A DNA stretch of 64,000 nt. Origin: an uncultured Apibacter sp. GTDB lineage: Bacteria > Bacteroidota > Bacteroidia > Flavobacteriales > Weeksellaceae. The position numbers and the translations under genes were made by a program. How positions within the stretch are numbered: position 1 is the first letter of the stretch; each line of letters begins with the position of its first letter. This document shows, one piece after another, positions 50,444 through 63,911 of the stretch. The notes under the pieces are model-generated. The model worked only from the letters and a program-made list of their open reading frames with translations. It was not told where the DNA came from and did no database searches. The stretch spans positions 1 to 64,000 of the forward strand of contig CALYQD010000002.1 in assembly GCA_945280365.1 (NCBI GenBank), given 5' to 3'.

Positions 50444-51511
50444 TTAATTTTTCAACTCATCATTTAATAATTTAGAAAAAAATGAGGTATTATTTCTAGC
50501 ATCAAATTTTTCAGCTAAATCTAAGGCTCGGTTATAGTAGTAGGAATACAAATCTTTTAAATTATATTCACCTGAATCGTCATATAATGGATGAGTCGCA
50601 CTTATCCTTATTTTCCTAGAACCTTCAACGTTAAAAAGATTTAAGACATTCACTGAGAAATCGAATTGCAAAGAATCTTCCGAATTAAAATCCCAAGGAG
50701 AATATTTTTCAAAAAGCTCAAATGCTTTTTCTCTATCATTATATATTAAATAATTAATTAATAATGAAACAGTTGATAAAAAAGTCCCATATTCCTCATC
50801 TACATTTTTTTTTAGCTCATACATGGCTTTTTCATAGAAATCAGCTGCTCTAGAATCTCCTAATTTATTTAAATAATAGGCAAATTTGCAAAAAGTAGTA
50901 AAAGGCATGCGATTACAACTGAGTTTCTTTACAAAAATATCATGAACAATATCAATAGCTCTGTCTACATTTCCTTTTATTAATTCAGACTCAATACTAA
51001 TATCTAGCTCACAAGCCACACAGTGGGACATATCATCACGGGTGTCTTTTTCTCTTAATTCAATATAAGCATCACTTGCCTCTATATCTCCTATAAAATT
51101 ATACCATCTAATTATAAGACTGTAATACCCACGTAAACTATAACCATTTTTTGTCATTCTAGATTTAAGATCCTCAAATATTTTTTCTATTTGCTCTTTT
51201 TCTATATTTGAATTTCTATAGGAAGCTTGCGCTAACCATCTATATTTCCATAATAAATCTTTTTCATCAAAAATTTCAGGATTTTTATCATAGGTTTCAA
51301 GAAGCCATGTAAAGGCTGGAAAACTTTCAATACATCTTGAAGTTCTAAATTCTTCTTCTATTAACTCCAACCTAAAATCAAATCCACATTCTAGATCATT
51401 ATTAGAATCCGCTAAAAGTATTGCTTGTTTTAAGAGAATTATTTTGTCATCCGGATTTGTAATTGAATTTAGCTTTAAATTAATTTTATGTAATTCTAAA
51501 TTATAGCTCAT
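50444..51511 (-). CDS. TPR-like protein, third tandem copy
   Basis: A 355-residue, all-helical, cytosolic solenoid protein (pairs of helices such as AAFYEKAM-type repeats), TPR-like rather than a strict TPR match. It carries a conserved DDMSHCVACELDI segment near residues 182-194 with two Cys three apart. Except for about 15 residues at the N-terminus and about 20 at the C-terminus (EKFDARNNTSFFSKLLNDEL) it is identical to the copy before it. Its ATG overlaps the stop of that copy by 4 bp. Function unknown; such solenoids usually bind proteins. Confidence 0.85.
   Translation of the reverse strand: MSYNLELHKINLKLNSITNPDDKIILLKQAILLADSNNDLECGFDFRLELIEEEFRTSRCIESFPAFTWLLETYDKNPEIFDEKDLLWKYRWLAQASYRNSNIEKEQIEKIFEDLKSRMTKNGYSLRGYYSLIIRWYNFIGDIEASDAYIELREKDTRDDMSHCVACELDISIESELIKGNVDRAIDIVHDIFVKKLSCNRMPFTTFCKFAYYLNKLGDSRAADFYEKAMYELKKNVDEEYGTFLSTVSLLINYLIYNDREKAFELFEKYSPWDFNSEDSLQFDFSVNVLNLFNVEGSRKIRISATHPLYDDSGEYNLKDLYSYYYNRALDLAEKFDARNNTSFFSKLLNDELKN
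50514..51468 (-). repeat. 955-bp direct repeat, copy A
   Basis: By eye this is identical to 51581-52535, at a constant offset of 1067 bp. It covers nearly the whole of the third TPR-like gene except its two ends. Such identity means a very recent duplication or ongoing gene conversion. Confidence 0.88.
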
Positions 51512-52578
51512 TTGCTCATTGTTTCTTTAGTTAATAAATTTTTAAAATTATCGGTTTTATTTCTTGCATCAAATTTATGAGCTAAATCTAAGGCTCGGTT
51601 ATAGTAGTAGGAATACAAATCTTTTAAATTATATTCACCTGAATCGTCATATAATGGATGAGTCGCACTTATCCTTATTTTCCTAGAACCTTCAACGTTA
51701 AAAAGATTTAAGACATTCACTGAGAAATCGAATTGCAAAGAATCTTCCGAATTAAAATCCCAAGGAGAATATTTTTCAAAAAGCTCAAATGCTTTTTCTC
51801 TATCATTATATATTAAATAATTAATTAATAATGAAACAGTTGATAAAAAAGTCCCATATTCCTCATCTACATTTTTTTTTAGCTCATACATGGCTTTTTC
51901 ATAGAAATCAGCTGCTCTAGAATCTCCTAATTTATTTAAATAATAGGCAAATTTGCAAAAAGTAGTAAAAGGCATGCGATTACAACTGAGTTTCTTTACA
52001 AAAATATCATGAACAATATCAATAGCTCTGTCTACATTTCCTTTTATTAATTCAGACTCAATACTAATATCTAGCTCACAAGCCACACAGTGGGACATAT
52101 CATCACGGGTGTCTTTTTCTCTTAATTCAATATAAGCATCACTTGCCTCTATATCTCCTATAAAATTATACCATCTAATTATAAGACTGTAATACCCACG
52201 TAAACTATAACCATTTTTTGTCATTCTAGATTTAAGATCCTCAAATATTTTTTCTATTTGCTCTTTTTCTATATTTGAATTTCTATAGGAAGCTTGCGCT
52301 AACCATCTATATTTCCATAATAAATCTTTTTCATCAAAAATTTCAGGATTTTTATCATAGGTTTCAAGAAGCCATGTAAAGGCTGGAAAACTTTCAATAC
52401 ATCTTGAAGTTCTAAATTCTTCTTCTATTAACTCCAACCTAAAATCAAATCCACATTCTAGATCATTATTAGAATCCGCTAAAAGTATTGCTTGTTTTAA
52501 GAGAATTATTTTGTCATCCGGATTTGTAATTGAATCTAACTTTAAATCAATTTTATGCAACTCTAAATTATAGCTCAT
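51508..52578 (-). CDS. TPR-like protein, second tandem copy
   Basis: A 356-residue helical solenoid protein, nearly the same as the third copy (differences at HKIDLKLDS near the N-terminus). Its last 19 residues (HKFDARNKTDNFKNLLTKET, ending MSK) instead match the end of the first copy (391 residues), so it is a mosaic. The conserved DDMSHCVACEL is present. Its ATG overlaps the stop of the first copy by 4 bp, and its stop overlaps the next ATG by 4 bp: the three genes are translationally coupled. Confidence 0.85.
   Translation of the reverse strand: MSYNLELHKIDLKLDSITNPDDKIILLKQAILLADSNNDLECGFDFRLELIEEEFRTSRCIESFPAFTWLLETYDKNPEIFDEKDLLWKYRWLAQASYRNSNIEKEQIEKIFEDLKSRMTKNGYSLRGYYSLIIRWYNFIGDIEASDAYIELREKDTRDDMSHCVACELDISIESELIKGNVDRAIDIVHDIFVKKLSCNRMPFTTFCKFAYYLNKLGDSRAADFYEKAMYELKKNVDEEYGTFLSTVSLLINYLIYNDREKAFELFEKYSPWDFNSEDSLQFDFSVNVLNLFNVEGSRKIRISATHPLYDDSGEYNLKDLYSYYYNRALDLAHKFDARNKTDNFKNLLTKETMSK
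51581..52535 (-). repeat. 955-bp direct repeat, copy B
   Basis: Second copy of the repeat described at 50514-51468; it lies within the second TPR-like gene. Recombination between the two would delete or add one complete coupled gene. Confidence 0.88.
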
Positions 52579-53750
52579 TTTCTCATTATTTCCTTAGTTA
52601 ATAACTTTTTAAAATTATCGGTTTTATTTCTTGCATCAAATTTATGGGCTAAATTCTGTGCTATAGATAAATAATAGTTATATAAATCATCAGAATTATA
52701 CTTTGCATCAGCCCTATAGAAAGGTAAGGATGGATTTAATTTTTCTAGCTCGATAGTCCCTTTTTGTTTAAATAAGTTTAAAAAATTTAAACAAACGTCG
52801 AAATTTGTCTTGTCTTCTGAATTTAACTGCCAATGAGCATACTTTTGATAAAGATCCAATGCATGCTGGGTATTATGGTAAGATGCGTAATTAATTAATT
52901 TAGAGAAACCTGAAATAAATGAAGATTCAAAATCATTATCAAACTCATTTAATCCCTTTTCAAAATACTCTTTCGCTTTACTCTCATTAACATTATTAAG
53001 ATAATAGGCTAAATTACAATAAGTATCAAAAGGGACTTCATGACAAGATATGCCTTTAAATAGCATTTCCTTTGTATCTAAAATGGCCGAATCATAATCT
53101 CCTGCAATTAATTTAATTGTTATTTTTTTATTCAACTCACAGGCTTCACAATCCGACATTCCATCTCTTCCATATTCATCTCTTTCTTTTAATGTTTGTA
53201 AAGCACCGGAAATATCTCCAATTGATTCTTGCAAATCTATTTTAGGAACGTAATATGCTCCTAATCCATATCCATTTCTTTCCAACCTCATTTTTAAATC
53301 TGCTAAAATGTCTTGAATTTGCTCTAATGAAATATCTGCATTATTCACAGCCCTACAAGCCAACCATTTATATTGCCATAATACATCCTCTTCCTCAAAT
53401 AAATCGGGATGAGAATCAACCGCTTCGAGCAACCAAGTCATCGCCGAAAAACTATCAATACAATGGGATGTATAATTTTCCTCTTCAATCAGTTGGATTC
53501 GTAGATCAAAAGATTCTTCTAAATCATTGGCAGCATCTGACAATCTGATTATCTCTTTCAATATGGGAATTCGATTATCTGGATTTATTTCTTCATCCAT
53601 TAAGATATGGCGTAAATCCATACTTTCATATAAATCTTTATTAAGATCCGCAATTTCAATTGCTTGATTTATTAATTTTTTTCTCAGATCGATATCATTT
53701 TCTTCATCAATCTTAATCTGTAACTTTTGTAATTGTAATTTGTAGTTCAT
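52575..53750 (-). CDS. TPR-like protein, first and most divergent copy
   Basis: A 391-residue helical solenoid protein, longer than the other two by one extra N-terminal helical repeat (residues about 28-62: IEIADLNKDLYESMDLRHIL then the related IIRLSDAANDLEESFDLRIQ). It keeps the Cys motif as DGMSDCEACELNK near 200. It is only moderately similar to the other two, so it is the older paralogue. It starts the operon; a -7 box lies 33 bp upstream. Divergent from the VKGC-like gene. Confidence 0.86.
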   Translation of the reverse strand: MNYKLQLQKLQIKIDEENDIDLRKKLINQAIEIADLNKDLYESMDLRHILMDEEINPDNRIPILKEIIRLSDAANDLEESFDLRIQLIEEENYTSHCIDSFSAMTWLLEAVDSHPDLFEEEDVLWQYKWLACRAVNNADISLEQIQDILADLKMRLERNGYGLGAYYVPKIDLQESIGDISGALQTLKERDEYGRDGMSDCEACELNKKITIKLIAGDYDSAILDTKEMLFKGISCHEVPFDTYCNLAYYLNNVNESKAKEYFEKGLNEFDNDFESSFISGFSKLINYASYHNTQHALDLYQKYAHWQLNSEDKTNFDVCLNFLNLFKQKGTIELEKLNPSLPFYRADAKYNSDDLYNYYLSIAQNLAHKFDARNKTDNFKKLLTKEIMRK

Positions 53751-53881: not shown

Positions 53882-55210
53882 ATGAAAATATCAAAAGGTA
53901 AATTATTCCAGGAAATAGATAATTCTCCCCTAATTATATTTAGGATGTTATTCGGATTTTTACTTTTTGTAGAATCTTGGGGTGCTATATTGACAGGGTG
54001 GGTAAAAACTAACTTAATATCTCCAAAAGTATTCTTCAGTTTTATTGGTTTTGAATGGCTTCATCCTCTTCCCGGATATGGAATGTATTTTTATTTTATA
54101 TGTATGGGAGCTTTAGGATTATTAGTAATGATTGGATACAGATATCGGTTAAGCCTTTTGTGCTTTACGATTTTATGGACAGCTCAATATTTAATGCAAA
54201 AAACGGCATATAATAACCATTATTATTTTCTGACTCTCATAAGTTTCTTAATGCTTTTTTTACCTGCAAATGCTTATTACTCCATTGATGTAAAAAGAAA
54301 TAAGAATATAAAATCATTGACAATGCCCCAATGGTGCTCATTCGTTCTGATACTGCAAGTTTCAATTTTATATATTTATGCAAGTATTGCAAAACTCTAT
54401 CCTGATTGGCTGGATGGTACTTTTACCCGATTATTATATTCTCATAAAACAGATTTCCCCTTTATAGGTAAATTTTTTACGGAAAAATGGTTTTATATTT
54501 CAATTGCTTATCTTGGTATTTTATTTGATGGATTGATTGTTCCTATGATGCTTTGGAAAAAAACCAGGACATTAGCTCTAATAGCAAGTTTAATTTTTCA
54601 TCTTTCCAATTCATTTATTTTAAAGGTAGGTATTTTCCCTTATTTTGCTTTAAGCTTTATTGTTTTTTTCTATCCTCCGGACACAATAAGAAGAATATTT
54701 TTCAAAAAACGACCCGCACTTTCATTAAAGACTTATAATTATACTAATAAGAATCAGACATATATCCTTTTAGTAATAATCTATTTTATCATTCAATTAC
54801 TCCTACCTATACGCCACTATTTCATTAAAGGAGATGTTTTCTGGACAGAAGAAGGACATAGACTAAGCTGGAGAATGATGTTAAGACAGCGAAATGGTTC
54901 TACCTATTTTACGATCATTGACAAAAAGACAAAGGAAATCCTTACCTTTAATATGCATGACTTATTTACTGAAAAGCAAATCCACAGAATAGATTGTTAT
55001 CCTGATTTTATATGGCAAGCAGCTCAGTATATAAAACAAGATTTTAAACAAAAAAATAAGGAGATTGAAATTTATGCAAATACAAAGATCTCTGTTAATG
55101 CACATCCGTTCAAGCAATTTATTGACCCAAAAATAGATTTAGCATCAGTAAGCTGGGATTATTTTAAACACTCTAATTGGATTCTTTTATATGATGATTA
55201 TAGAAAATAA
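53882..55210 (+). CDS. HTTM-domain membrane protein (vitamin K-dependent carboxylase-like)
   Basis: A 442-residue protein with several membrane helices (about residues 15-275) and a soluble C-terminal part. It fits the HTTM/VKGC family: an N-terminal RMLFGFLLFVESWGAIL helix, a central AYNNHYYFLTLISFLMLFLP, IYASIAKLYPDWLDG and the conserved HRLSWRMMLRQRNG segment (about 326-339). Animal relatives gamma-carboxylate glutamate in secreted proteins; the role of bacterial relatives is not known. It is divergent from the TPR-like operon (131 bp) and convergent with the EamA gene (16 bp). Confidence 0.88.
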   Translation: MKISKGKLFQEIDNSPLIIFRMLFGFLLFVESWGAILTGWVKTNLISPKVFFSFIGFEWLHPLPGYGMYFYFICMGALGLLVMIGYRYRLSLLCFTILWTAQYLMQKTAYNNHYYFLTLISFLMLFLPANAYYSIDVKRNKNIKSLTMPQWCSFVLILQVSILYIYASIAKLYPDWLDGTFTRLLYSHKTDFPFIGKFFTEKWFYISIAYLGILFDGLIVPMMLWKKTRTLALIASLIFHLSNSFILKVGIFPYFALSFIVFFYPPDTIRRIFFKKRPALSLKTYNYTNKNQTYILLVIIYFIIQLLLPIRHYFIKGDVFWTEEGHRLSWRMMLRQRNGSTYFTIIDKKTKEILTFNMHDLFTEKQIHRIDCYPDFIWQAAQYIKQDFKQKNKEIEIYANTKISVNAHPFKQFIDPKIDLASVSWDYFKHSNWILLYDDYRK

Positions 55211-56551: not shown

Positions 56552-58354
56552 CTAAAAATCTAATTTTTCCATAAAATCGCTCATTCCTAAAATTATAAGT
56601 TGATATAAAGCATTATTAAATACTTCCATTTCTTTTTTATTTACAGGATATCCTCCCAACATAAGTGCTTGTACATACATGATATGAACGATTGCTTCAA
56701 ACATAAAGGAATCTTCAACCTGAAATAATTTTTGTACTATTTCATTATCTTTATTAAAGCATAAAGTCGGCATATTTTCATTTTCTTTTTTCACAAAATT
56801 CTGTAACGTTGATGAAAAAGGATTGGCCGAATTAGATAAATTCTGTATATTTTTATTATTAATAGCTTGATCATTCGCTACATATATAGCAGGAGTATCA
56901 ACAGGGTGGAATTCTTTAATTTGAACCTTACAATAAAAAGATCGAAGAAGCTGATTGGCTTTTTTTTCAAATCTAATATAATTTTGATTTTCAGCGATTT
57001 TAACATCTTCAAAATTATCCAATATATCTTGAGGGGTTATCTTTTTGAAAATGATCTCGGGTATTGTTACCTTAATTTTTTCAATCAAATCTGTTTCAAA
57101 GCTGTAAGCTGAATTAATTATTGTTTTTCCTTGAGATCCAGCTATTCTTCGTATTTGCCTGAAATCATCCAAGTAAGGAGTATAGTATATAATTTCATTA
57201 TAAGTTCTGAGTGATAAAAAAGTCATGTCTCCTTTGTTTGTTTCAAAGGGAATATAATCAATAAACATTTTTAATAAATCGGAATCTTCTAACGCTAATG
57301 CTTTGATATATAAATGATGAATTTTTATTATTTGACTAAGGATATGTGTATCTGTAACAGCAAGATATTTTAAATAATCCTTAAAACAAAATGTAAGCTC
57401 ATTTTTAGCTTTTGCCATGAGCTCATTATTCATAAGCGCTTCCCTTGAGGCCGTAGGTCGTAATGTGTTAGTGTTTATTATGCAACGTACAAAGGTTGAC
57501 CAATCGGGAAGGAGTCCTTTAACATCCTCACATAGAAACATTCTTTTTAAATAAACTTTATTCTGCTTCGTATTTCCTAAAAACTGAACCTTATGAGGCA
57601 TTATATAAGCTATACCTTTTATCTCTCCTACCTGAGATTCTAATTTAAAGGAATCTAAAAAATTTATACCAAATATTTTTTTACCATATTGAAGTATATC
57701 TTCTTTTGATGCTTCAGAACTTAACCACACAGGTTCTTTATCGACAAGCACATCGTTTCCCTTTTCGGAAACAAAATTAATTTTTATAGGTAAGGCATCT
57801 CCAAAATAGAGAATATTTTTCTTTATTTCTTCTTCTTTAAAGAGACTTTTCCATTCTTTCTTTGGGGTAAGAATCACTCGAGTGCCTATTTCTTTTATAT
57901 CTTCCGAAGGTTCAACTACATAGGTACCATCTGCCTTTCCAATCCAACGTATTCCTTTATTTTTTAATAGCGAACGAGTTTCAACAATTATTTCATTGCT
58001 TACGACCAAACAAGAAAGCATCCCTATACCAAACTTTCCTATATAATCTTTTTCTTCAAGTTCTCCTCTTTTGGAACTTTGTCCTATTACGGAAAGAAAT
58101 TGATGAACCCCCTCTTCTGTAAGCCCAATTCCATTATCTTCAAAAATAAATTTGGGTGTATCCTCATCATGAGTTAAGTACAACGTAATTTTCCCTTCAA
58201 ATTCATCTATACCTTTGCGTGCTGTAATCGCATCTACTCCATTTTGAAGTAGCTCACGTATGAAAACATTGGGACTGCTATAAATATGTTCTGAAAGTAA
58301 TTCAATCATCCCTTTCAGATTAACCTGAAATAAATATTTATTAGTATCTGACAT
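56552..58354 (-). CDS. atypical HSP90-family GHKL ATPase
   Basis: A 600-residue protein with an HSP90-type ATPase domain: FIRELLQNGVDAITAR (31-46, with Glu-34 and Asn-38 for catalysis and Mg), FEDNGIGLTE (71-80), YIGKFGIGMLS (104-114) and GTRVIL (157-162). A middle domain with NTNTLRPTASREAL near 300 follows. Canonical HtpG has LLSNASDA in the first motif and is a little longer; this belongs to the separate bacterial 'HSP90 family protein' group. The C-terminal domain is divergent. It starts 30 bp after the Sel1-repeat gene's stop, in one operon, recalling HSP90 with solenoid co-chaperones. The client is unknown. Confidence 0.9.
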   Translation of the reverse strand: MSDTNKYLFQVNLKGMIELLSEHIYSSPNVFIRELLQNGVDAITARKGIDEFEGKITLYLTHDEDTPKFIFEDNGIGLTEEGVHQFLSVIGQSSKRGELEEKDYIGKFGIGMLSCLVVSNEIIVETRSLLKNKGIRWIGKADGTYVVEPSEDIKEIGTRVILTPKKEWKSLFKEEEIKKNILYFGDALPIKINFVSEKGNDVLVDKEPVWLSSEASKEDILQYGKKIFGINFLDSFKLESQVGEIKGIAYIMPHKVQFLGNTKQNKVYLKRMFLCEDVKGLLPDWSTFVRCIINTNTLRPTASREALMNNELMAKAKNELTFCFKDYLKYLAVTDTHILSQIIKIHHLYIKALALEDSDLLKMFIDYIPFETNKGDMTFLSLRTYNEIIYYTPYLDDFRQIRRIAGSQGKTIINSAYSFETDLIEKIKVTIPEIIFKKITPQDILDNFEDVKIAENQNYIRFEKKANQLLRSFYCKVQIKEFHPVDTPAIYVANDQAINNKNIQNLSNSANPFSSTLQNFVKKENENMPTLCFNKDNEIVQKLFQVEDSFMFEAIVHIMYVQALMLGGYPVNKKEMEVFNNALYQLIILGMSDFMEKLDF

Positions 58355-58384
58355 ATAATTTTGTAAAACTATGAATCTATCAAT

Positions 58385-60901
58385 TTAAAATAACTTCCAT
58401 CTTCTTTTTCTTTTTCCTACTATCTTAGAGGCTTTTTCATGACCATTATCTGATGCCTTCTGATACCACATCATTGCTTTTGTTTCATCTTCGGCAACTC
58501 CTTTTCCCATTAGATAACAATTTCCTAATTCAAATTGTGCTTCTGCATATTCGGACTCAGCGGTCTTGGTTAATCGGATAATTCCCTGCTCCAAATCTTG
58601 ATTGGTACCTTCTCCATCCAATAACATCATAGCGGTATAAAATTCTGCATATAAATTACCTTCTTCCGCTGCTTTTGAAAGCCATGTAAAAGCCTCAACC
58701 TGATTCTCATCCGTTCCAATTCCAAATTTATAAGAAATTCCTAATCTATATTTGGCGCTAGTAAATCCTGCTTCAGCCCCTAAGGTATAATACTTAAAAG
58801 CTTCTTTAAGATTTTCCTCTGTTCCTACTCCGTACTCATAACAAACTCCCAATCCTTCGGAAACCAATCCTTTTTCTTCGGCATTTTTATAATATTCAAA
58901 GGCTTTATCATCTTGAGGATTTTCCAATCCTGCATCATTATAAAGATAATAGTCTCCTAACAGTAACGCTGCATATGGATATCCTCTTTCGTAAGATTTA
59001 TTAAGCCATTCTAATGCTTTTTCAAAATTTTTCTCAACTAAACCATAATAGTAATAATATCCCATTTTATATTGCGCAAAGGAATAGCCTTGTTCAGCAG
59101 CTTTCAACATATAATCCATGATTTTTTCCGCATCAAATTCTAAACCACCATATTCGCCTTCATAAGATAAGGCTAATTCAATACATGCATCTCCGTAATT
59201 ATGTTCGGCAGCTTTTTTAAAGTTATCTAAAGCAAATTCGGGGTTTTCAGGAACTCCAATTCCATATTTGTAGGCTCTTCCAAGATTGTAAATGCCTTCT
59301 AAATTTCCAGATTCAGCAGATTTTTGATAGGCTTGAAATGCTTTCATATAGTTTTTTTCACCCAGTAGCCCTTCTTCTTCATAATAGCCTATTTTATTAC
59401 AAGCATATGAATATCCGTTTTCTGCAGCTGAATTATACAATTCATAAGCTTTTTGAATGTCTTTTTCAACTCCTGTTCCCTCTTCATAACAGATGGCTAA
59501 TTCCATCTTTGCATAATTCGACCCCATTTCTATAGCTTTATTAAAATATTCTATTGCTTTAGCTGGGTCTGCTTCTTCAGTTTTAGTTACTCCTACCCTA
59601 TAATAATGTCCTACTAATTCTATTCCATAAATTGAATTTCTTTCAGCAGCCAATTGATACCATTTAAAAGCCTCATAATAATCCGGTTCAAGCACTCCGT
59701 TTTCATACATTTGTCCTAAAATATAAGGGGCAAACGAATCTCCTAATTCTATAGATTTGTCTAATAAGTTTCTGGCTTCTTCTATATTCGGCACTTCTTG
59801 ATTTAACAATTGATAGGCTTTTTCCGACATGGCGGAGGCATTACCTTCCTTTATTGCTAAATCTAAATAAAAATTCCCTTTTTCAAAATCTTTAACTGAA
59901 TCTTCATATAAGTATATTAATGCTAATTGAAATGTAGAATCATCGAAATAATACAAATTAGCTTTTTCATGCCAATGTATGGATTTTTGAATTGATTTAT
60001 TTTCATCTGGGGAATAATTGTAATAACGTGCCAACCAATTTGCTGCATAAATCACTCCATCTTCATATGCTTTTTCTAAGAATTCAATTCCTTCGGATGT
60101 TTGATAACCTTTAATTCTTTCATTAATTATATTTATGCCCAGCAAATATTTACTAATGGCGCAATTATTTTTTATTCCTTCTTCTAGTATTTCTTTTGCC
60201 TTTTCTAAATTTTCTTCTTTGTATAAATAGAATTCTCCTAGTAAATGATAGGCTCTTTCGGATTCTACTTCTCTGGAATTATTAAATTCTTCTATATCGG
60301 AAAGAATTTTAGCATTATCTTGTTCTGTATAAAAAGTTACATTAAGCAATAAATTGTCTGCTTTTGTATAACCCAATTCTTTAGACTTATGTAATAAATG
60401 CAATCCTTGTTCTTTATCTTCTTTTTCACCCCTCATTGCAAAATATAGATTATATCCATGAGTAGCCATACAAGCAGGATCTCCTAATTTTATTCCTTGC
60501 AGAATATATTCTTTTGCTTTTTCATTACTTCTATAGGGCCTACGAGCAGTGTTTATTATATATCCTCTTTTATGATATGCTCTTAAAAATTGTTGTTTTA
60601 AAAATTTATCATTTACTTCTTCTACTTTTTCAAACCAAAATCTGTAGTCAATATCAGATAAATTTGTAGAAAAATGTTGATTACTATTATCATCGTATAA
60701 AGATAGATATAACTTCTTTATTTCTTCGTTAACAGAATTAGAATCAAGAGCTAACTCACACAAAATCAAACCCTTTAACCAGTTATCTTTATTATAAAAA
60801 TTTTTTTCTTTTAACAATTCAATGACTTCTTCTTCTATCGGCTGATTATTTAATTGTTTAAATAATTCTTGATAATGGTTTTCTAAATTTGATTTCAACA
60901 T
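58385..60901 (-). CDS. large Sel1-repeat protein
   Basis: An 838-residue cytosolic protein built of about 18 Sel1-like (TPR-related) repeats from about residue 130 to 825, with the typical units of about 36 residues (for example AKMELAICYEEGTGVEKDIQ, then KAYELYNSAAENGYSYACNK). The N-terminal 120 residues are helical but not Sel1. The C-terminus is very basic (KRKRRWK). No signal peptide, unlike most secreted Sel1 proteins. Such solenoids are protein-binding scaffolds. It is the first gene of the unit with the HSP90-like ATPase; a co-chaperone or adaptor role is the natural inference. Divergent from the AsmA-like gene. Confidence 0.92.
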   Translation of the reverse strand: MLKSNLENHYQELFKQLNNQPIEEEVIELLKEKNFYNKDNWLKGLILCELALDSNSVNEEIKKLYLSLYDDNSNQHFSTNLSDIDYRFWFEKVEEVNDKFLKQQFLRAYHKRGYIINTARRPYRSNEKAKEYILQGIKLGDPACMATHGYNLYFAMRGEKEDKEQGLHLLHKSKELGYTKADNLLLNVTFYTEQDNAKILSDIEEFNNSREVESERAYHLLGEFYLYKEENLEKAKEILEEGIKNNCAISKYLLGINIINERIKGYQTSEGIEFLEKAYEDGVIYAANWLARYYNYSPDENKSIQKSIHWHEKANLYYFDDSTFQLALIYLYEDSVKDFEKGNFYLDLAIKEGNASAMSEKAYQLLNQEVPNIEEARNLLDKSIELGDSFAPYILGQMYENGVLEPDYYEAFKWYQLAAERNSIYGIELVGHYYRVGVTKTEEADPAKAIEYFNKAIEMGSNYAKMELAICYEEGTGVEKDIQKAYELYNSAAENGYSYACNKIGYYEEEGLLGEKNYMKAFQAYQKSAESGNLEGIYNLGRAYKYGIGVPENPEFALDNFKKAAEHNYGDACIELALSYEGEYGGLEFDAEKIMDYMLKAAEQGYSFAQYKMGYYYYYGLVEKNFEKALEWLNKSYERGYPYAALLLGDYYLYNDAGLENPQDDKAFEYYKNAEEKGLVSEGLGVCYEYGVGTEENLKEAFKYYTLGAEAGFTSAKYRLGISYKFGIGTDENQVEAFTWLSKAAEEGNLYAEFYTAMMLLDGEGTNQDLEQGIIRLTKTAESEYAEAQFELGNCYLMGKGVAEDETKAMMWYQKASDNGHEKASKIVGKRKRRWKLF

Positions 60902-61115: not shown

Positions 61116-63911
61116 ATGAAGTGGAAAAAAATTTCATTTTGGTTGATTTTTATCTTTATTTTAGGTTCTCTTTTAAACTTTGGAATTAATGATTGGATAA
61201 AAAACAGTCTTCCGAATTTTATTTCAAAAAGAAATGATACACCTTATAACTTCAATTATGCTGATGTATCTTACTCTCTTTTTGAGAGGCAAATGATTAT
61301 TAGTAATATAAATATTTCTCCTAAAAGTAAAAAAAAGGGTATCTATACAATTAATGTAAACAAAATAACTATTCATGGAGTTAAATTTCTACGTTTTATT
61401 ATTTTTAAAGATCTTGCCGCCAATCTTATTGAGATAGATTATCCGAATATCTTAATTAAACAAAACATTGATTCTTTTAATCACAAAAATGATTCAGTTA
61501 AATATAATCTTGGCAATTCTATTCAAATTGAAAAATTTGTAATTAATAAAGGGAATTTAGCTCTCTATAATACATCAGACGGTATTAAAAAAGCTTCTTT
61601 AACAAATCTAAATCTTTCTCTTTCAGGAGTTTTATGGGACATCGCTAATAAAGAAAAAAGAATCCCTATTACTTACAATAAGATAAAATTAGAAGTTTCG
61701 GATGTTTTTTATCAACTTAATGAAATTCATCATCTCCAATTAAAAAAATTGAAATTTGAAGATGGATATATACAAACCGATCAAATAATATTGCATCCGG
61801 ATATAACAGAAGAACAATTTAAAAATGAAAAATATTATCAAAAAAGTTTACTAAATATAAATATTCCTACAGCAAAAATAAAAAACTTGGATTGGGGATA
61901 CGACAAGGACGATTTTTTCTTCCTTAAAACTTCCAAAATTGAAGTTGATTCAACCAGTATTGTAATTAAAGAAAAATCATTAAATAAACCTACTAAAAAT
62001 ATTACAGCACATATAGATCGTATTATTCCCTTTAATTTAAATATAGATACTATTCAAATACTTAACTCAAAATTAAATTTTAATAATCACATAACCAGTA
62101 ATAATATAAATATAATTATTCAAAAAATCGTTAATAAAATAAATGATAAAATAACTCTGGAAAGTCTTAAATTATATAACAATTCATTAATTATATATCA
62201 ACAGAATAACACTGAATATACTCACAATAATCGTAACAATTTTACTTATTTATTCGACGATATCCTTGAAATAAAAAATTTTACTATTGCTAACACACAT
62301 ATACAATATGTAAACGAAAATAAAAAACCTATATTAGAGATGGGTAATATGAATTATTCCATCAATGATATCAATATAAATACGATATTTACAAATACTA
62401 AAAAATACATCCCTTTTTCTTATTCTGATTATAAATTAGAGGCCGATGATATTGTGTATTCAGGTATAAAATATCATACGTTTAAAATAGGAAAAATGCT
62501 TTTGAAAGATAATGAATTTCTTGCCAGTAAAATTCATATCATTCCTACTATAACTACCCCAGTATTTTCCGGATCAAACGACAGTAAAGATCTTTTTAAA
62601 ATATATGTTGATTACTTAAAAATTCCTATAGTAAATTGGAATATTACTGATAATAAATTTAATTTACAGGCCCCTTTCATTGTTATCAATGAAATGAATG
62701 CATCTATTTACCGAAACCCTTCAGTTAAATTAAATTCCAAAAAAATTCATTTAAATAATTACGATTTAAACACGGACATTCATATTGATAAATTTTCAAT
62801 TAATAAATCTTCCTTAAACCAATACAATGCCGCTAATGGTGAACTTATCACCTCTATAAAAGACCTTAAATTACAACTCTATACCATAACTTTAGAAGAT
62901 TCATCTAATGAAAATCCTTTAGATTTACCTTTTTCTTTTTCTAAATTTAATTTAACTGGAAAAAACATTTTTCATGATATGGGAAATCATACCATACATA
63001 CAAATTATCTCATGCTAACAAACTCCTCACTGTATGCAACTCATATAAAAATAAAACCTAAAAAGGAGCAGTTGGATTTGATGAAAAAAAGAGGTATTGA
63101 TGCGTACACTATAAACATTCCAAAAGTTAATATTCCAAAATTAAATTTCAAACTTACAAATCATAATATTGAATTTGCTGCCCCTCTTGTTTCATTTGAA
63201 AAAATGGATGTTACCATACACCAATTTGACCTTCCCAAAAAGTTGTATATTCCAACTTATAAATCTTTTCTAAGTGAAAAATTAAGAAAATTAAAGTTCA
63301 AATTAAATTTAAAAGAGGTTAATTTTTTAAATTCTTCTTTAACTTATGAAGAAGAATCTCTTAATAAAAAAACCGGAAAAATATTTTTTACTGATATCAA
63401 TGCAAAAGTTAAAAATATAATCGGCGGATATAAATTTTCATATTTACCCGATGTTACTATTAATTTTAAAAGTAAATTCATGAATTCCGGCAAATTAACA
63501 GCCATATGGAAATTTAACACTTTAAATAAAAATGATAATTTTATTGTAAAAGGAAGTATAGTAGGTTTGGCCGCCGAACAAATTGACAATTTTATCAAGC
63601 CTTACTTAAATATATCTTTTAAAGGATATATTAAAAAAGTATCCTTTAATTATTACGGAGACAATACGTACGGATATGGATCTTTTGGTATGGATTACAA
63701 AAATTTAAAAATAGCTTTTTATAAAAAAAACGGAAAAAAAGAAAAAAAAATGATGTCTTCACTAGCTAATTTAGCAATTAAAAAAAATTCAAAAGATTCT
63801 TTAAAAATATCGGAAATCAAAAAAGTAGAAAGAGCTAAAGATAAATCATTTTTTAATTTTATATGGAAATTAACCCTTAAAGGACTAAAAGAGACTTTAT
63901 CCATTTTTTAA
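61116..63911 (+). CDS. AsmA/DUF748-like large envelope protein
   Basis: A 931-residue protein with an N-terminal membrane anchor (KISFWLIFIFILGSLLNFGI, about 5-24) and a long periplasmic part of repeating beta-strand units, rich in Asn, Ile and Lys. Units begin with phrases like DVSYSLFERQMIISNINISP and recur as DYKLEADDIVYSGIKYHTF and SKFNLTGKNIFHDMGNHTIH. The C-terminal part (PDVTINFKSKFMNSGKLTAI, then VKGSIVGLAAEQIDNFIKPY) fits the AsmA/DUF748 group of bridge-like lipid-transport proteins. A role in phospholipid movement to the outer membrane is inference. The last 60 residues are Lys-rich. Confidence 0.82.
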   Translation: MKWKKISFWLIFIFILGSLLNFGINDWIKNSLPNFISKRNDTPYNFNYADVSYSLFERQMIISNINISPKSKKKGIYTINVNKITIHGVKFLRFIIFKDLAANLIEIDYPNILIKQNIDSFNHKNDSVKYNLGNSIQIEKFVINKGNLALYNTSDGIKKASLTNLNLSLSGVLWDIANKEKRIPITYNKIKLEVSDVFYQLNEIHHLQLKKLKFEDGYIQTDQIILHPDITEEQFKNEKYYQKSLLNINIPTAKIKNLDWGYDKDDFFFLKTSKIEVDSTSIVIKEKSLNKPTKNITAHIDRIIPFNLNIDTIQILNSKLNFNNHITSNNINIIIQKIVNKINDKITLESLKLYNNSLIIYQQNNTEYTHNNRNNFTYLFDDILEIKNFTIANTHIQYVNENKKPILEMGNMNYSINDININTIFTNTKKYIPFSYSDYKLEADDIVYSGIKYHTFKIGKMLLKDNEFLASKIHIIPTITTPVFSGSNDSKDLFKIYVDYLKIPIVNWNITDNKFNLQAPFIVINEMNASIYRNPSVKLNSKKIHLNNYDLNTDIHIDKFSINKSSLNQYNAANGELITSIKDLKLQLYTITLEDSSNENPLDLPFSFSKFNLTGKNIFHDMGNHTIHTNYLMLTNSSLYATHIKIKPKKEQLDLMKKRGIDAYTINIPKVNIPKLNFKLTNHNIEFAAPLVSFEKMDVTIHQFDLPKKLYIPTYKSFLSEKLRKLKFKLNLKEVNFLNSSLTYEEESLNKKTGKIFFTDINAKVKNIIGGYKFSYLPDVTINFKSKFMNSGKLTAIWKFNTLNKNDNFIVKGSIVGLAAEQIDNFIKPYLNISFKGYIKKVSFNYYGDNTYGYGSFGMDYKNLKIAFYKKNGKKEKKMMSSLANLAIKKNSKDSLKISEIKKVERAKDKSFFNFIWKLTLKGLKETLSIF

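Follow-up and report, generated by a model that had tools for sequence, protein, structure and literature searches.

A non-HtpG HSP90 gene of bacteria is widely paired with a gene for a predicted TPR-like helical solenoid and, in one Bacteroidota clade, with a gene for a Sel1-repeat protein

The window, i.e. the whole stretch of 64,000 nucleotides (nt) analysed from an uncultured Apibacter sp., carries on its minus strand a gene pair encoding a long Sel1-repeat protein and an HSP90, and three tandem genes of a helical solenoid family (50444-53750) sit 2.8 kb downstream of the HSP90 gene. We describe these genes and their recurrence in other bacteria. The features are as follows, with lengths in amino acids (aa):

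58385..60901, minus strand: Sel1-repeat protein, 838 aa, first gene of the pair; basic C-terminal tail in most orthologs
56552..58354, minus strand: HSP90, 600 aa, with N, M, and C domains; family NF010683/PRK14083
52575..53750, minus strand: predicted TPR-like solenoid, long copy, 391 aa
51508..52578, minus strand: predicted TPR-like solenoid, apparently a recent chimeric tandem copy, 356 aa
50444..51511, minus strand: predicted TPR-like solenoid, short copy, 355 aa, modelled with AlphaFold

The Sel1 gene ends 30 base pairs (bp) upstream of the HSP90 gene on the same strand. The original prediction, made from the letters alone, had proposed an 838-residue Sel1 protein 30 bp from an HSP90 outside the HtpG type, and the open reading frames (ORFs), the Pfam Sel1 match, and the match to NF010683 (658 bits) bear this out; it had also read QNGVDA in the first GHKL motif correctly, the full motif being ELLQNGVDA. 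Specifically, the window HSP90 scores 658.5 bits with NF010683 ("HSP90 family protein", cut-off 455 bits) and 174.8 bits with the HtpG model NF003555 (cut-off 371 bits), placing it outside HtpG by that model. A second, HtpG-like gene is found on another contig of the same genome (G000:C3:112200-113987), and this one reaches 176 bits with NF010683. A quick tree of 73 family members and 8 HtpGs, in which most Paenibacillus loci were left out and any grouping of the long-branched L055 and L056 may be false, splits the two sets with a support of 100. We therefore reject the identification of the window HSP90 as HtpG, given its score under the HtpG cut-off and its separate branch.

The window HSP90 is built as a complete Hsp90, in which the N, M, and C domains follow one another in the usual order. 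Its AlphaFold model has a mean pLDDT of 83.3, with residues 94-108 poorly predicted, and its top Foldseek matches are full-length Hsp90 structures. These matches span the full length with a best E of 5.5e-36, and identity lies at 16–20% across the 50 structure matches shown. Similarly, positions 5-576 of a ten-member HSP90 profile align to positions 5-612 of an E. coli HtpG chain (E = 2.6e-60). Residues E34, N38, D73, G75, and R304 are invariant among 38 aligned members; E34 and R304 align to the RELI and SREI motifs of HtpG, and we take them to be the catalytic glutamate and the middle-domain SRE arginine, respectively. Judged by its sequence, the protein is probably an ATP-driven clamp with ATPase activity. 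Distant HSP90-like genes were also seen in Salmonella (L060:5962-10109), where a protein with a weak TPR match is encoded behind, and in Pseudanabaena (L061:5932-10795), where a TPR-matching protein is encoded behind and a TIR gene lies near.

The solenoid family has no name, and its typical length is roughly 355 aa. Pfam assigns no family to any of the three window copies, which thus carry no curated TPR match, and no TPR family matches more than 2 of 46 members at 0.01, although one Listeria solenoid barely passes TPR_8 (26.1 vs 25.7 bits). The AlphaFold model of the short copy is an all-helical superhelix (pLDDT 95.5) in which antiparallel helix pairs form the superhelix, as predicted for a TPR-like helical solenoid. 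The PDB matches of this model include PPR, APC/C chain O, MalT, and other solenoids, and they are weak (best E = 7e-4, TM-scores mostly 0.3–0.6). Three cysteines (C164, C167, and C199) are kept in 45 of the 46 members. Such helical solenoid folds usually bind proteins or nucleic acid.

A scan of named genomes with the window HSP90 confirmed at least 574 relatives, of which the best 80 loci were kept and all inspected; these are the top matches to the window HSP90, hence nonrandom, and Paenibacillus is heavily represented among them. A solenoid gene, counted at E below 1e-5, is present in the HSP90 locus in 67 of the 80, and in 63 it lies within 50 nt. In 38 of the 80 loci, the HSP90 stop and the solenoid start even overlap, the overlap being either 4 nt or 1 nt long, while the four in-locus solenoids beyond 50 nt are those of L062, the Apibacter adventoris record (2.7 kb), and of L078, L093, and L094 (203–772 nt). 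The arrangement spans eight phyla, i.e. Bacillota (32/37), Myxococcota (11/12), Planctomycetota (8/11), Bacteroidota (5/9), Actinomycetota (5/5), Pseudomonadota (3/3), Acidobacteriota (2/2), and Thermodesulfobacteriota (1/1), and a genus-level tally based on self-assigned labels gives 39 of 49. Outside the window's genus, solenoid relatives stand directly behind HSP90 in G036, G344, Listeria, and Paenibacillus. Among 71 solenoid frames in the 67 loci, none is fused in frame to HSP90. The partners encoded beside HSP90 in Actinobacteria (L121, L129, L131, L138, and L141) are longer, at 488 to 963 aa, and carry extra sequence besides the solenoid part.

Of the 13 genomes without an in-locus solenoid, 11 encode one on another stretch. 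In L139, the contig stops about 70 nt behind HSP90, so a solenoid may still adjoin HSP90 there. Clustering of the neighbouring genes, for which a crude gene finder was used, finds no other family beside HSP90 in nearly as many genera as the solenoid: the next cluster covers 10 genera, but its members vary in distance and most lie on the opposite strand, and another covers 5 genera with 27 members, many of them about 1 kb upstream of HSP90. By contrast, all 25 HtpG-type control loci from the window's order (below the NF010683 cut-off, with 489–1458 nt visible behind the gene) have neither a solenoid nor a Sel1 partner.

The two genes also share their presence and absence. Of 250 genomes drawn once from the class to which Paenibacillus tuaregi (L109) belongs, 34 have a solenoid match at the threshold of 1e-10, 26 of them strong (below 1e-100) and 8 weak (1e-12 to 1e-14). 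HSP90 is present in 26 of the 250, and these coincide genome for genome with the 26 strong solenoid matches. Among 60 relatives, the HSP90 cut-off is passed by 5, all strong solenoid matches come from these 5, and two further relatives have weak partial solenoid matches. A scan of Bacteroidota finds HSP90 in 2 of 395 genomes and the solenoid in 2 of 390, these being the same two genomes, and within the genus Apibacter 4 of 9 genomes have HSP90. Corynebacterium glutamicum likewise scores above the NF010683 cut-off. A comparison of distances over 56 HSP90–solenoid pairs gives r = 0.907, whereas permutations reach no more than 0.223; much of this correlation follows from shared species history, and we do not rely on it.

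The Sel1-repeat protein has a much narrower distribution. Its Pfam Sel1 match reaches 266 bits (E = 2e-81, cut-off 30.7 bits), with seven stretches passing on their own, and a repeat model derived from the window places 11 units above zero bits; some 18 repeats, as judged from the protein length, are plausible. No signal peptide is evident by eye at its start (MLKSNLENHYQELFKQ), and all Sel1 matches of the genome fall within this one protein. Eight orthologs are colinear over the full length at 35–71% identity to the window's protein, most with the basic tail. A search of 17 Bacteroidota genomes finds Sel1 orthologs in 8, and a full-length one is absent from all 30 HSP90-carrying genomes of other phyla, where 6 show partial matches of at most 235 bits vs at least 856 bits for orthologs. 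Among the 80 loci, Sel1 adjoins HSP90 in 4, all Bacteroidota, and it does so as well in the window genome, G006, G008, and G036. As such, Sel1 is rejected as a general HSP90 partner.

Within one Bacteroidota clade, Sel1 does track HSP90 and the solenoid. The HSP90s accompanied by a Sel1 ortholog fall in a single clade of 11 rows with a support of 100, in which the sole other row is a Tannerella metagenome-assembled genome (MAG). All three genes are found in the window genome and three others of its genus, while five genus members have no HSP90, no Sel1 ortholog, and no strong solenoid match. The MAGs G450 and G451 also hold all three, on different contigs, as match positions on one contig would fall inside the HSP90 locus or past the contig end. 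In G450, HSP90 and one solenoid copy are each flanked by other genes; in G451, only about 620 nt are available upstream of HSP90, so Sel1 may still adjoin it beyond the contig edge.

The original prediction thus had the right kind of module, i.e. a helical-repeat protein and an HSP90 outside the HtpG type whose pairing is conserved across lineages, and the wrong main partner. The adjacency it expected in many lineages does not extend beyond one Bacteroidota clade for Sel1 and holds strongly for the solenoid, whose neighbouring copies it had treated as background and which prove to be the widely conserved partner family.

The solenoid copies of the window are indeed amplified, as it had also noted. 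Those at 50444-51511 and 51508-52578 share 97.5% DNA identity, and their differences are confined to the first 43 nt and the part beyond about nt 999. Over some 955 nt, the body of the middle copy is the same as that of the short copy, and its 3' end resembles the long copy, a combination that points to one recent unequal crossover yielding a chimeric middle gene; this origin fits the sequences, and an assembly error is the alternative. The amplification therefore looks like a single event, and the further proposal of a system that adapts its partners finds no counterpart in the tandem copies. Two solenoid copies each are present in three relatives of the window genome, and two solenoid genes also lie together in Listeria, L105, L136, and L141. 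An Oscillospiraceae genome has a tandem solenoid pair on a contig other than that of HSP90 (L145:7298-10721), one of the two being 757 aa long.

Other genes of the window lie close by. Between the solenoid array and HSP90, positions 53882-55210 encode an HTTM protein that carries the lumenal domain of vitamin K-dependent gamma-carboxylase. A gene at 61116-63911, divergent from that of Sel1, encodes a 931-aa protein without a Pfam match, and an ORF of 921–930 aa occupies the equivalent place in all three genus relatives examined.

Taken together, we propose that these genes probably encode an Hsp90 machine of bacteria that is distinct from HtpG and has a dedicated TPR-like solenoid and a clade-specific Sel1 adaptor. 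HSP90 would act as an ATP-driven clamp paired with the solenoid, whose gene directly follows that of HSP90 in most loci examined, often so closely that stop and start codons overlap. The solenoid would most likely be an adaptor or co-chaperone, presenting clients to HSP90 or tuning its ATPase, the simplest reading of a confidently predicted helical superhelix with such tight coupling, and one Bacteroidota lineage would have added the upstream Sel1 protein as a second, larger adaptor. We infer the physical complex and the adaptor role from these patterns. A stronger version, which we consider slightly less likely than not, is that the family is an ancient Hsp90 branch with a near-obligate, co-inherited co-chaperone that evolved independently of the eukaryotic MEEVD–TPR system, to which at least one lineage added Sel1 to widen the range of clients.

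Several observations weigh against a dedicated machine of this kind. Two of the 80 genomes have no solenoid match, namely the MAG G449, for which completeness is unstated, and the draft G453, whose contig stops just behind HSP90. The 8 genomes with weak solenoid homologs in the draw of 250 have no HSP90, nor does HSP90 lie near such homologs in the three loci examined. In three genomes of the window's own genus, the solenoids lie about 2.6–7.6 kb from HSP90 with other genes between, and in a further member of the genus (G008) they are on a contig other than that of HSP90. None of 38 HSP90 members ends in MEEVD, so that the docking of eukaryotic TPR proteins cannot apply directly. Lastly, a promoter-like site (9 of 12 matches, 58383-58355, minus strand) falls inside the 30-bp gap directly before HSP90, and Sel1 and HSP90 may thus be separate transcripts; it is one of 33 sites found between 56200 and 61200, where shuffles lead one to expect 29.1, i.e. 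background.

In a separate observation, the weak solenoid homologs (L142:5004-6113, L143:5233-6342, and L144:5176-6222) each adjoin a gene that by eye resembles an Rrf2-type regulator.

The main rival is that the solenoid, and the Sel1 protein of Bacteroidota, are obligate clients that HSP90 folds or assembles and that do the actual work. Linkage and co-occurrence are equally expected of a dedicated chaperone and its client, which also counts against our proposal, and solenoid genes in pairs, as in Listeria and the three other loci with two together, are what one would see for an effector or a client. Yet solenoid homologs occur without HSP90 in 8 of 250 genomes, albeit weak and diverged ones. 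In addition, the solenoid is predicted with high confidence to fold compactly, and its window copies match no catalytic family. We regard the client reading as unlikely though still worth serious consideration, and sequence data do not by themselves separate a client from a co-chaperone.

It is improbable, in our view, that the HSP90 is instead a sensor or defence ATPase, i.e. a GHKL clamp triggered by a signal that the repeat proteins recognize. The patchy occurrence in Bacteroidota (2/395) and in the genus (4/9) would suit such a role, as would the TIR and TPR genes near the distant HSP90-like gene of Pseudanabaena. The N-terminal ATPase also weakly matches TmtA of PADLOC (E = 2.2e-10), but this match spans only about 110 residues of a shared ATPase fold. 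Single solenoids among the 46 weakly match SieB (1.8e-4), the C-terminal part of TnsA (0.0037), and PIN (0.0039), though again these matches are weak and involve one member each. No nuclease or other effector family is matched by the window proteins, no third family recurs at the HSP90 locus, and the 33 pattern matches in IMG/VR include no confirmed relative.

Even less credible is that Sel1 and HSP90 are neighbours through lineage inheritance only, with an unrelated role for Sel1: its orthologs are limited to one clade, where close ancestry alone could hold the pair, and a promoter-like site separates the two genes, but two MAGs keep all three genes despite different contigs, five genus members lack them together, and Sel1–HSP90 pairs are kept in Apibacter, Bacteroides, and two other lineages at 35–71% Sel1 identity.

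A viral origin of the module was rejected, as the phage records that most closely match HSP90 and the solenoid are short unannotated contigs and IMG/VR holds no confirmed relative. PHROG families do match all three proteins (the pair at 56552-60901 and the solenoid at 50444-51511), one weak match being to the phage RIIA family, and these matches may reflect host contamination.

If our proposal is right, bacteria have their own set of proteins devoted to assisting Hsp90. A gene pair spanning eight phyla is a concrete, testable candidate for them, and it offers a small system in which to study how partnerships between Hsp90 and its adaptors originate.

Among known systems, HtpG (Hsp90A, or Group A) shares with the window HSP90 the full-length fold, the N-terminal GHKL ATPase, the middle domain with the SRE arginine, and the C-terminal domain. 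It differs in forming a separate branch with a support of 100 in the quick tree and in its model, under whose cut-off the window HSP90 falls, and the HtpG-type loci of relatives have no such repeat partner. TwinS is a name for an HtpG co-chaperone, on which we found nothing relevant in the open-licence literature.

Eukaryotic Hsp90 works with TPR co-chaperones such as Hop, FKBP51/52, and AIPL1, and thus likewise pairs with helical-repeat proteins. It differs from the bacterial system in that the window solenoids have no Pfam match, none of the 38 HSP90s ends in MEEVD, and the bacterial partner is usually encoded right behind HSP90.

Non-A bacterial Hsp90 groups were described in 2006. The Groups B and C of HTPG (Chen et al. 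2006; PMC1525184) and hsp90B and hsp90C (Press et al. 2013; PMC3708813) are, in the parts of these papers available to us, bacterial Hsp90 paralogs outside Group A that occur across phyla, as is the family described here. The second copy of Bacteroides fragilis is given there as 588 aa (Chen et al. 2006), the same length as the Bacteroides members of our family, a likeness to B. fragilis HTPG2 by length alone; the family would presumably correspond to Group B or C. Press et al. (2013) excluded both hsp90B and hsp90C from their analysis, and the same parts of the two papers mention no partner for any of these groups.

The HSP90 family itself is thus already known and named. The window HSP90 is a member of NF010683/PRK14083, a model whose printed name and description cover HSP90 alone. 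We found no description of its pairing with the solenoid or with Sel1 in the open-licence literature, a scope that leaves out preprints and most subscription papers, where it may be in print. The partnership with the solenoid, and that with Sel1, may be the new part.

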